Source: an uncultured Desulfobacteraceae bacterium
Lineage (GTDB): Bacteria > Desulfobacterota > Desulfobacteria > Desulfobacterales > Desulfatirhabdiaceae
Length of the DNA: 64,000 bases
Assembly (NCBI GenBank): GCA_903953895.1
Contig: CAJBLH010000081.1
Coordinates: 1 to 64,000, forward strand
Reading direction: 5' to 3'
Each line of letters opens with the position of its first letter. Within the stretch, counting starts at the first letter, position 1. This document shows positions 20,361 through 26,778 of this stretch, one piece after another. Below the pieces are notes generated by a model. That model worked only from the letters and a program-made list of their open reading frames with translations. It was not told the origin of the DNA and searched no databases. Position numbers and translations under genes: made by a program.

Positions 20361-20435
<75 letters not shown>

Positions 20436-20443
20436 TTTTTTTT

Positions 20444-20518
20444 GGCGGCATAGCCAAGTGGTAAGGCAACGGTCTGCAAAATCGTTATTCTCCGGTTCAA
20501 ATCCGGATGCCGCCTCCA
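20444..20518 (+). tRNA. tRNA-Cys (GCA)
   Basis: The acceptor stem GGCGGCA pairs with TGCCGCC, with discriminator T and encoded CCA (20516-20518). The anticodon loop reads GTCTGCAAAAT with GCA, and the T loop GGTTCAAATCC is standard. It lies directly after tRNA-Gly. Confidence 0.97.
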
Positions 20519-20596: not shown

Positions 20597-23500
20597 CTAA
20601 GTGGACGTGGGGCGACTGATCAAAACATCAGTTGCCGTAAAAATGATATAATCCGCCGTTTTTTCAGCAGACTGGCCGAAAAGATCTTCCATCCGGATCG
20701 ATTCAAGGTGGGTGTCGTTCCACAAAACACTGGTTTCCTGAACAATGTTCTTGATCCGTTCGTATTTTCCGCCAAGAGCCTTGATTTTCACAGACAGCGA
20801 CACCTGTTCTTTGAAGTCAATGTGAAGCAGCATCAGGTTGCTGATGCTGCTAGCGGATGTGGCGGAGTAAATCGGGATGATGATGATATTGCGGTCGTCG
20901 TTGCGGCCCCTACCGATAAAAACATTTCCTTCCCGCACGATGATGCGTTTGGTGCCCCGAAGCTGCGAATCGATTTCAACCCTTGACGTCAATGCAGCAA
21001 TCGAACCGGTTTTCTGTTGAACCGTAATCGTGGTTCGATCGGTGATTTCGCCCAGCACATTCAGGCCGTCAATACCATATAGAATCAACCCATTTATTTT
21101 CAATACAATTTCTTGAAGATTTTTCAATACCCGGATGTTGCTGCTGGTCAATTGTGAAATGCCGAAACCGTTTTGCTCCAGTATGTCAAAAATAATTCCT
21201 TCGATTTTCTCGATGATCCGGCTGGTGCCGACGGTAACGGTTTTGGCCTGGTGTTTGATGGCATCGATGGGTCTGGCCATATAATTGATGGCTTCTCCCA
21301 GGGATTCGAACAAGGAACTCAGCATATGCTGGGCTGTTCCTTTTTTACCGAAATCAAGTTCAAAGTCTGCAACCGGAAGTCTTCCGGACAGATATTTCAA
21401 CAAGATGGACAAATCGGAGCCGGCCTGATAGCCCATCGTGGTGCAAAGGCCTTTTTGTTCATTATTTTTCTTCAACAGATAATAGAATTCAGCGACTTTT
21501 TCCCGAAAAGGCCTTTCCAGAATCAGCTCATAGACATCCATCCCATCCTGAATATATCGATCCACCGTTTGCTGCAGGTCTTCACGGAAATCATACAGGA
21601 GCTTGGAGCCATCATTGATCGCCAAGGCCGCATAATATCCCCAGATATGGCCGACCAGGGTGTTGACGATGGGCGACAGATGCTGAGGAACGGCTGGCAC
21701 ATGGAACACGTCATCTGCATACGGAGCAAAACGATCTTCGCCTTCATCGGCAATCACCAGCACCGCAGACTTATGCGCCTTGAAAATCGCCGTATCCTTG
21801 ATCACATCGCCGATGACAACCCCCCGTGTGCCGGCGGCGCAAACTATGATAAGCGGCTCTGAAGACAGATCGATGTGTTTTTTATCCTCGACAAAATCAG
21901 ATGATATGGTTTTGTAGCAGAGTTCGCTAAGTTTGATCCGGATTTCATCTGCGGAAGACTTATTGGGACCGCTTCCGACCACTGCCCAGTAAGTGCGTTT
22001 CTGAGCCAGCCGGCCGGCGGATTCTCGAATGCCGGGTTGAAGCAAGAGAATCCGGCGCATCTGCTGCGGAAGTTTCAACAGGAAGTGAAGTTCTTCAGCG
22101 ATAAACTCCGGCGACCTTTTTCCCTGAAGATCAGCCAGATACAGCCCCATCAGCGCACCAGCGACGATCTGGGAATAGAAGGCTTTGGTCGATGCCACAG
22201 ACATTTCGATATCCCGTCCGCTGCTGGTATACATCACCCCCTGAACCTTGAAGGTAATATCCGAATCCCGGCGGTTGACGATGGCAAGGGTCGCAGCACC
22301 CCGTTCCCGTACCATGTCCACGGTGCGGTTGGTATCGGCCGTGGTTCCGGACTGGGTGATGGCAATCACCAGGGCGTCGCGCATGTTGCCGGAAGTTCCC
22401 GGACTGGAAAGCTTGAATCCGCTCAGCTCAGAGGCTTTCATGGCCACTATCTGAATCGTTGGATCATCTAAATAATAATTTAAAATATCCGCACAGGCTT
22501 GGGCTGCAATACCGGCAGTGCCCTGGCCGATAAAAAAAATTCGTCGGATGGACTGTTGTGCAAAAGCCATCCGGATCTCCGGCGGAATAACATTATCGCC
22601 AAGCACAACAGCAGGCATATTGGTATCCGGATGCACCCGCCAACGATTCACCAGGGTTTTCTCGACAGATGCCGGCGCTTCAGAAATTTCCTTGAGGAAA
22701 TAGTGGGGAAACGTTTGACGGTCAATGTCCCGGGACGTGATCTGCGTGGTTTTGATATCCGACTCACGCAGAACGATCGGCGCCCCATTATAATACATGG
22801 CCTTGATTCCGGAAACGGACCCACCGGAATCCTGATCCAGAATGAAAATCTGGCCCTGGGTTTTTCCCTCTGGTCCATCGACAACCTTTTCCCCGTCCAT
22901 TTTCACGAATCGATCGGTTTCCTCAACAAAACCATACACTTCCGAAACCGGAATATAGTACTCTTTCCCAAGGCCCACGAATATCGTCTGGCCGCTGCCT
23001 TTCTGTGCCAGAAACAGCTTTCCGGGAGCCAGATCCGATGTCATAAAAATGGCATGAGATCCTTTGAACGAATTGACAGCCTGCCGGAATGCCTCTTCAA
23101 TATTCAGCCCGCTTTGCACGAACTTGTGGATCTGAAGCGGAATGATTTTGGTATCCGTGGTAATGTCGGCGGAAATCTGAATCCCATTCTGCTCAAAAGT
23201 GGCCTTCAGTTCCTGATAATTGTCGATATCTCCGTTCAGAGCGGCCTGAATGATGCCGACGTCACCAAAGCTGATTGATGATGACAGGTTATCCACAGGA
23301 TGACAGTTGGCAGGCGTTATGGCGCCTACCGACGCCCAGCGGGTATGGGCAAACACCATCAGGGAACTGCAATGAATATCCGCAATAAGATGAAGCAGCT
23401 CATCCTCGCATACCTGTTGACGGATGAACGCGATGTTATCCCCAAGTCGACCGACTTCCGCCGCCACTTTGTATGTCAAGACCATCGCAGCGCAGACCGA

Positions 23501-24376
23501 TCTGCCCTCCTGGCAGGACTCCCGCAGGCTGATTCCCCGGTTCAGCAGGACTTCCTGATTGGTACGACTCGACAGTTCGCCGGACAATCCCCGAGCTTCA
23601 ACAGCGCACTGAAACCGCTCATATTCCATGCCTTCCAACATAAACACCAAGGACATTCCGGCAGAATCACGGCCCCGGACTTCCAGGCGATCGATGCTGT
23701 TGAGGACGGTGTTGATCTTTTTAAAAACGCTGACCACACTCAGGGACGGCAGGTTTTTCCCCGGATGAACCAGTTCCCGAATCCGGTCGATGTTTTCCAG
23801 TATCTCGGATTTCAGACACCACACAACATCTTTGAGAATTTCAATCCGCTGAATCATGATATCGATGTCAGCGGTCGACAGGTGGCCCATGTTCCGATCG
23901 AGTGCAGCCGTTTCAGTTTGAATCAGGGTGTTGAGGCGCCCTGAAATCTCAGAGAGGATTTGTTGCCAGTTTGGATCGGCATAGACGGCATAAAAAGACG
24001 GAGTTCTTTTCAGCGATTGGACTTGATCGCGCAGCGACAGGGCAACCGAATCCCCTCCGAGATAGTGATCCATCAGAGGCGACGCCGATTTTTTGCACGC
24101 CACATACCCGCCGGCTTCCCCATCCGACAACGTTTTTCTCAGGCCATCCGCCAGCAGGCCCGCCGACAAATCCGATGCATCCGCCTTGCCGGGTTTAAAG
24201 GAAACAAGGCCAGAAAGACCGCAGCATAAAAATGCGGAACAGCAGGGGAAGAAAATAATCGATCGATCCGGCACGGCAGCCGGATGCCGTCCGACATAAA
24301 CGTTTGAAAACATGACAAAAGCAGCACGTTGCATAAAGGCGCATACGGAAGTCATTAAAAAATGTAATAATAACAT
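20597..24376 (-). CDS. Giant GlmS-like protein: class II amidotransferase plus SIS domains
   Basis: A 1259-residue protein, twice the length of GlmS (about 610). The N-terminal glutaminase is recognisable: Cys52 in CCGLSGLVSF as putative nucleophile, RGRDSAG (234-240), FAHTRWASVG (342-351), NGDIDNYQEL (381-390) and TDTK (407-410). About 170 residues separate Cys52 from RGRDSAG, where GlmS has about 25. Isomerase-like SIS domains follow, with HYFLKEI (558-564), QSGTTADT (675-682) and SVASTKAF (726-733). The GELKHGP region is altered to EDKKHID, and the terminal GlmS motif is replaced by about 330 residues of unknown type. AAGGTGAG precedes the ATG at 24376, so the nucleophile would need removal of 51 residues. 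It lies downstream of kdnAB; its product is not known. Confidence 0.75.
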   Translation of the reverse strand: MLLLHFLMTSVCAFMQRAAFVMFSNVYVGRHPAAVPDRSIIFFPCCSAFLCCGLSGLVSFKPGKADASDLSAGLLADGLRKTLSDGEAGGYVACKKSASPLMDHYLGGDSVALSLRDQVQSLKRTPSFYAVYADPNWQQILSEISGRLNTLIQTETAALDRNMGHLSTADIDIMIQRIEILKDVVWCLKSEILENIDRIRELVHPGKNLPSLSVVSVFKKINTVLNSIDRLEVRGRDSAGMSLVFMLEGMEYERFQCAVEARGLSGELSSRTNQEVLLNRGISLRESCQEGRSVCAAMVLTYKVAAEVGRLGDNIAFIRQQVCEDELLHLIADIHCSSLMVFAHTRWASVGAITPANCHPVDNLSSSISFGDVGIIQAALNGDIDNYQELKATFEQNGIQISADITTDTKIIPLQIHKFVQSGLNIEEAFRQAVNSFKGSHAIFMTSDLAPGKLFLAQKGSGQTIFVGLGKEYYIPVSEVYGFVEETDRFVKMDGEKVVDGPEGKTQGQIFILDQDSGGSVSGIKAMYYNGAPIVLRESDIKTTQITSRDIDRQTFPHYFLKEISEAPASVEKTLVNRWRVHPDTNMPAVVLGDNVIPPEIRMAFAQQSIRRIFFIGQGTAGIAAQACADILNYYLDDPTIQIVAMKASELSGFKLSSPGTSGNMRDALVIAITQSGTTADTNRTVDMVRERGAATLAIVNRRDSDITFKVQGVMYTSSGRDIEMSVASTKAFYSQIVAGALMGLYLADLQGKRSPEFIAEELHFLLKLPQQMRRILLLQPGIRESAGRLAQKRTYWAVVGSGPNKSSADEIRIKLSELCYKTISSDFVEDKKHIDLSSEPLIIVCAAGTRGVVIGDVIKDTAIFKAHKSAVLVIADEGEDRFAPYADDVFHVPAVPQHLSPIVNTLVGHIWGYYAALAINDGSKLLYDFREDLQQTVDRYIQDGMDVYELILERPFREKVAEFYYLLKKNNEQKGLCTTMGYQAGSDLSILLKYLSGRLPVADFELDFGKKGTAQHMLSSLFESLGEAINYMARPIDAIKHQAKTVTVGTSRIIEKIEGIIFDILEQNGFGISQLTSSNIRVLKNLQEIVLKINGLILYGIDGLNVLGEITDRTTITVQQKTGSIAALTSRVEIDSQLRGTKRIIVREGNVFIGRGRNDDRNIIIIPIYSATSASSISNLMLLHIDFKEQVSLSVKIKALGGKYERIKNIVQETSVLWNDTHLESIRMEDLFGQSAEKTADYIIFTATDVLISRPTST

Positions 24377-24514: not shown

Positions 24515-26778
<2,264 letters not shown>

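Follow-up and report, generated by a model that had tools for sequence, protein, structure and literature searches.

An enlarged GlmS, probably made as a precursor, replaces the canonical enzyme through nearly a whole bacterial class

The window, the whole stretch of 64,000 nucleotides analyzed here from an uncultured Desulfobacteraceae bacterium, carries on its minus strand (20597 to 24376) a complete open reading frame of 1259 amino acids, which we judged genuine and which has orthologues order-wide. Its product is very probably an enlarged form of the cellular glucosamine-6-phosphate (GlcN-6-P) synthase, GlmS, made as a precursor from which a leader is removed, exposing Cys52, so that the mature enzyme makes GlcN-6-P. 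GlmS catalyzes the entry step to the amino sugars of peptidoglycan and lipopolysaccharide. The long form replaces canonical GlmS through nearly the whole class, and such a replacement of an entry-step enzyme by a protein of twice the size makes it a noteworthy version of this textbook enzyme. Conserved residues and predicted structures support the role as GlmS well, and from the sequence we infer GlmS activity.

GlcN-6-P synthases of 589 to 716 amino acids have been reported (PMC9272926). The protein is longer here because it has a leader of ~50 residues, two inserts within its glutaminase domain, a third, helical one ahead of the C-tail, and an extension at the C terminus, none of which belongs to the canonical layout. 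An alignment of 47 homologues, to which all conservation counts refer unless stated otherwise, gave one order of parts, all on the minus strand. The leader (residues 1 to 51; 24224 to 24376) has a variable half and a conserved half (26 to 51) and is followed by the strand with Cys52 (24221 to 24223), the predicted residue 1 of the mature protein. Insert 1 (about 62 to 216; 23729 to 24193), all helical in the model, precedes a conserved helix and VRGRDSAG (about 217 to 240; 23657 to 23728). The alignment then places a stretch with insert 2 (about 241 to 338; 23363 to 23656), ~60 residues longer than its canonical counterpart, before the main part of the glutaminase domain (339 to 510; 22847 to 23362), which contains HTRWAS, NCHP, LNGDIDNY, and TTDTK and is recognized by Pfam, conservation, and modeling. 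A linker leads to the synthase/isomerase half, two SIS domains (549 to 923; 21608 to 22732) defined by the same three kinds of evidence and holding catalytic K815, E818, and H834. Insert 3, helical in the models (924 to 1034; 21275 to 21607), separates the second SIS domain from the C-tail (about 1035 to 1050; 21227 to 21274), and the extension (1051 to 1259; 20600 to 21226) follows. The earlier note had described the frame, the 51-residue leader, RGRDSAG, and the glutaminase and SIS motifs in this way; Cys52 (in CGLSG) and RGRDSAG (234 to 240) lie about 180 residues apart.

Pfam found both a class II glutaminase domain and SIS, the latter above its cutoff. NCBIfam GlmS models covered residues 325 to 919 with scores below their cutoffs; TIGR01135 gave 241.5 bits against a curated cutoff of 418 bits, which is an annotation threshold and not a biochemical feature. 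The low score results from the inserts and the split N terminus, and automatic annotation by TIGR01135 would therefore miss the protein, so that genomes of the class would appear to lack glmS.

Four residues named as catalytic in E. coli GlmS, Cys1, Glu488, His504, and Lys603 (PMC9272926, whose residue table has an N-terminal numbering one off from E. coli), correspond to Cys52, Glu818, His834, and Lys1045, none of which varies in the 47 homologues. The same holds for K815 (E. coli K485) and for the glutaminase residues R346, W347, N381, G382, and D408 (R73, W74, N98, G99, and D123). Two residues of the sugar-phosphate region, Ser303 and E351 of E. coli, are Ala621 and Thr678 in all 47, and substrate handling may therefore differ from that of E. 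coli GlmS.

An unknown C terminus of 330 residues had been thought to replace the normal end of the enzyme. This cannot stand, as the catalytic C-tail with the Lys603 equivalent, overlooked before, is kept inside the protein. The canonical PRNLAKSVTVE is present as RPIDAIKHQAKTVTVG at about 1035 to 1050, preceded by ~110 added residues and followed by ~200, whereas in canonical GlmS this tail forms the C terminus. The block is the most conserved part of the alignment, with 94% mean identity to the window protein and 13 of 16 columns invariant. When the inserts were spliced out, the profile alignment reached the last canonical GlmS residue with a score of 450.6, while 10 control blocks gave 434.5 at most, which shows that the normal end is retained.

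An AlphaFold2 model of the mature form (residues 52 to 1246) had a mean pLDDT of 85.4 and a pTM of 0.75. Model residues 1 to 995 superposed on E. coli GlmS (1jxa), matching 594 of 608 residues with a Z of 43.0, from residue 1 through the C-tail. For the glutaminase domain 1xff, 237 of 239 residues were matched (Z 27.9; rmsd 1.7), and the match to the isomerase domain 1moq ran to its last residue, 608. In this predicted structure Cys52 therefore occupies the place of Cys1, and with its invariance this bears out the earlier proposal that it is the nucleophile; on sequence and model together, Cys52 is the predicted glutaminase nucleophile. The likeness to canonical GlmS (TIGR01135, 1jxa) thus extends over the whole chain, with glutaminase, two SIS domains, and C-tail in the same order and every catalytic residue present. 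Model confidence in the C-tail is low (36 to 48), in keeping with a mobile loop.

The C-terminal part, modeled separately (mean pLDDT 89, pTM 0.58), combines a bundle of helices with an alpha/beta domain. Residues about 1059 to 1190 matched many PAS/GAF chains at Z 5.5 to 6.6, a range in which the likeness may be no more than one of general arrangement, and the best fold match of the extension, to the N-terminal part of a large glutamate dehydrogenase, had a Z of 8.4, too low to decide. Foldseek matches were weak (best E 0.03). The predicted fold thus resembles PAS/GAF sensor domains, but the extension has no sequence relative in Pfam or PDB. The inserts and the extension lie around a catalytic core that is itself complete, and their role is probably in assembly or regulation.

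We searched 57 relatives and found a match in 55, almost always the same long protein, which excludes chance and artefact; one relative (G012) has only a canonical GlmS of 614 amino acids. In a class sample of 147 genomes, the long form occurred in 142. Canonical GlmS exceeded the curated cutoff in two (G064 and G125), both without the long form, and no genome had both. Three genomes that are 97 to 98% complete (G027, G048, and G069) had neither, which would reflect either an assembly gap or another route to GlcN-6-P. The window's own genome has no GlmS candidate besides the long protein; its other SIS matches are frames of 326 and 216 amino acids, which by their size alone we take to be KdsD-like and GmhA-like. 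It contains glmM, and no bifunctional GlmU was found above the cutoff. A 263-aa frame (G000:C49:46397-47134) matches only the uridyltransferase half of GlmU, and the other half is matched by a frame near glmM that contains one in-frame TGA (G000:C87:2017-2700).

Across the wider phylum sample, a second clade of long proteins showed 43 to 45% identity, four genomes had deeper relatives of about 40% identity with open frames of about 1060 to 1170 amino acids, and most other genomes had proteins of ~610 amino acids whose identity to the SIS and glutaminase parts was about 30%. Three homologues of about 1130 to 1160 amino acids (L057, L058, and L059) carry the same internal C-tail signature, RPIDTIRHQAKTVTVG in two and RPIDSIRHQAKTVTVG in one, and their C-terminal extension has diverged. 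One genome of the phylum sample (G344) encodes both forms, a long GlmS in a 1277-aa frame (L064) and a canonical one of 616 amino acids (L060). Named records belong to Desulfobacterales and relatives, including Desulfosarcina, Desulfatitalea, Desulfobacula, and Desulfospira.

In the window protein, the leader's conserved half reads VYVGR-x5-VP-xx-SIIFFP-x5-LC, and the consensus of its last ~26 residues among homologues is [VI][YF]xG[RK]x5VPxx[SA][IV][VI]FFPx5Lx, followed by Cys. F43 and P44 are each present in 44 of the 47 homologues. In 104 leadered homologues the N-terminal half of the leader is basic, with 19.6% Lys/Arg and 3.2% Asp/Glu where the mature part has 11.8% and 13.0%, and in 96 of them it is more amphipathic than its own shuffles. 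The leader is missing in 15 of the 125 sequences in a quick tree (FastTree), on which its state changes seven times, at least four of these changes being forced by well-supported branches. Genes of leaderless homologues start with ATG-TGC, placing Met directly before the Cys, and most have a Shine-Dalgarno-like sequence ahead of this start. L057 to L059, the deepest relatives, lack the leader; a single gain with several later losses would fit this, on a tree that does not separate gain from loss.

Glutaminase activity in class II amidotransferases requires a free N-terminal Cys. Use of an N-terminal Cys is documented for this class (PMC7948480), and self-processing is known for PurF-type enzymes and for precursors of glutamate synthase (MEROPS C44; PMC7056826, PMC5753285). 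Because of this need, this self-processing, and the leaderless Met-Cys genes, the most economical reading of the leader is a removed propeptide, and it is best read so by analogy with PurF and glutamate synthase. The earlier note had held that the leader must come off for glutaminase activity; an invariant Cys52 at the Cys1 position accords with this, and sequence and analogy together argue strongly for removal that exposes Cys52. Like PurF and glutamate synthase, the long GlmS is a class II amidotransferase with a translated leader before its catalytic Cys, and, as in PurF, some relatives are leadered and others are not. The likeness concerns the presence of a leader; the enzyme is a different one, and its leader of ~51 residues has a basic amphipathic start and a conserved motif of its own. 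PurF propeptides are removed autocatalytically, whereas for the long GlmS cleavage is what we infer. In the literature searched, whose coverage of subscription journals was partial, we found no relevant report of a GlmS with a propeptide and none joining GlcN-6-P synthase with Desulfobacterales. A propeptide on GlmS, if true, would place it with PurF and glutamate synthase among the processed amidotransferases, and the natural mix of leadered and leaderless forms allows a direct test of whether an N-terminal Cys is needed.

On this reading the precursor would be translated with its ~51-residue leader, which either the protein itself or a protease would take off, leaving Cys52 as the N-terminal nucleophile. 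The N-terminal domain of the mature enzyme would then hydrolyze glutamine and pass ammonia to the SIS half, which with the C-tail would form GlcN-6-P by means of E818, H834, and K1045, while inserts and extension would act in assembly or regulation around the complete core. An elaboration that we hold to be rather unlikely would make the precursor in this class a zymogen, held by its basic amphipathic leader, perhaps at the membrane near the cell-wall transpeptidase of the adjacent gene, until removal activates the glutaminase, with the PAS/GAF-like domain sensing a metabolite and adjusting amino-sugar flux.

It is extremely improbable that the leader is untranslated and that an unrecognized codon next to Cys52 is the true start. 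Codons 1 to 21 lack any codon-position pattern among three close homologues, as would be expected then, but in the same three, codons 22 to 51 differ by 0.24, 0.089, and 0.333 at first, second, and third positions. Second positions thus change least, the pattern of a coding sequence, which indicates that these codons are translated, and the motif persists even in homologues at ~43% identity. M1 is an ATG with a Shine-Dalgarno-like AAAGGTGAG close 5' of it, a plausible ribosome-binding site. The codon before the Cys in leadered genes (TGC, AAT, TCG, GGA, and others) is no usual start codon; together with the conserved translated leader, this led us to reject a normal GlmS layout from another start. 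We looked among the homologues for such a layout and for loss of Cys52, and found neither. A retained leader with an inactive glutaminase and an enzyme that uses free ammonia is also very unlikely. The residue before the Cys varies (C, S, N, A, G, F, Y, H, or P) and no cleavage consensus at −1 was seen in the leadered homologues, which would fit retention, and given the requirement for a free N-terminal Cys a retained leader would indeed abolish glutaminase activity. However, the invariance of Cys52, N381, G382, D408, R346, and W347 indicates that glutaminase function is under selection, and in the leaderless homologues Met aminopeptidase would expose the Cys. When self-processing marks were sought in the mature part, no column was at least 95% conserved in leadered and below 60% in leaderless sequences.

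The neighboring genes bear on whether the protein might be a GlmS paralogue with another product, such as an amino sugar that would go into the 8-amino-Kdo lipopolysaccharide of kdnA and kdnB. Directly upstream in the window, on the minus strand, are kdnB (Kdo 8-oxidase; 24515 to 25579) and kdnA (8-amino-Kdo transaminase; 25585 to 26778), for which the solved enzymes 5k8c (E 6e-145) and 5k8b (E 1e-158) rank first or second among PDB matches. The earlier note had taken these genes as a hint at amino-sugar metabolism; they were correctly named, but the adjacency is not general. Among 74 loci, the gene directly upstream of the long GlmS is a transpeptidase gene in 28 and kdnB in 17, the window included, so the kdn genes are optional neighbors, and we rejected a general link; metG with the transpeptidase gene is the more constant and most frequent upstream context. 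The fixed changes to A621 and T678 could also point to another product. Against this, most genomes of the class offer no other GlmS candidate, long and canonical GlmS are exchanged for one another, and the long protein keeps every GlmS catalytic residue. We therefore regard a paralogue as very unlikely, and the protein is best explained as the general GlmS of the cell rather than a special 8-amino-Kdo enzyme. Just 3' of its gene, on the opposite strand (20361 to 20518, plus), lie genes for tRNA-Gly (GCC) and tRNA-Cys (GCA).
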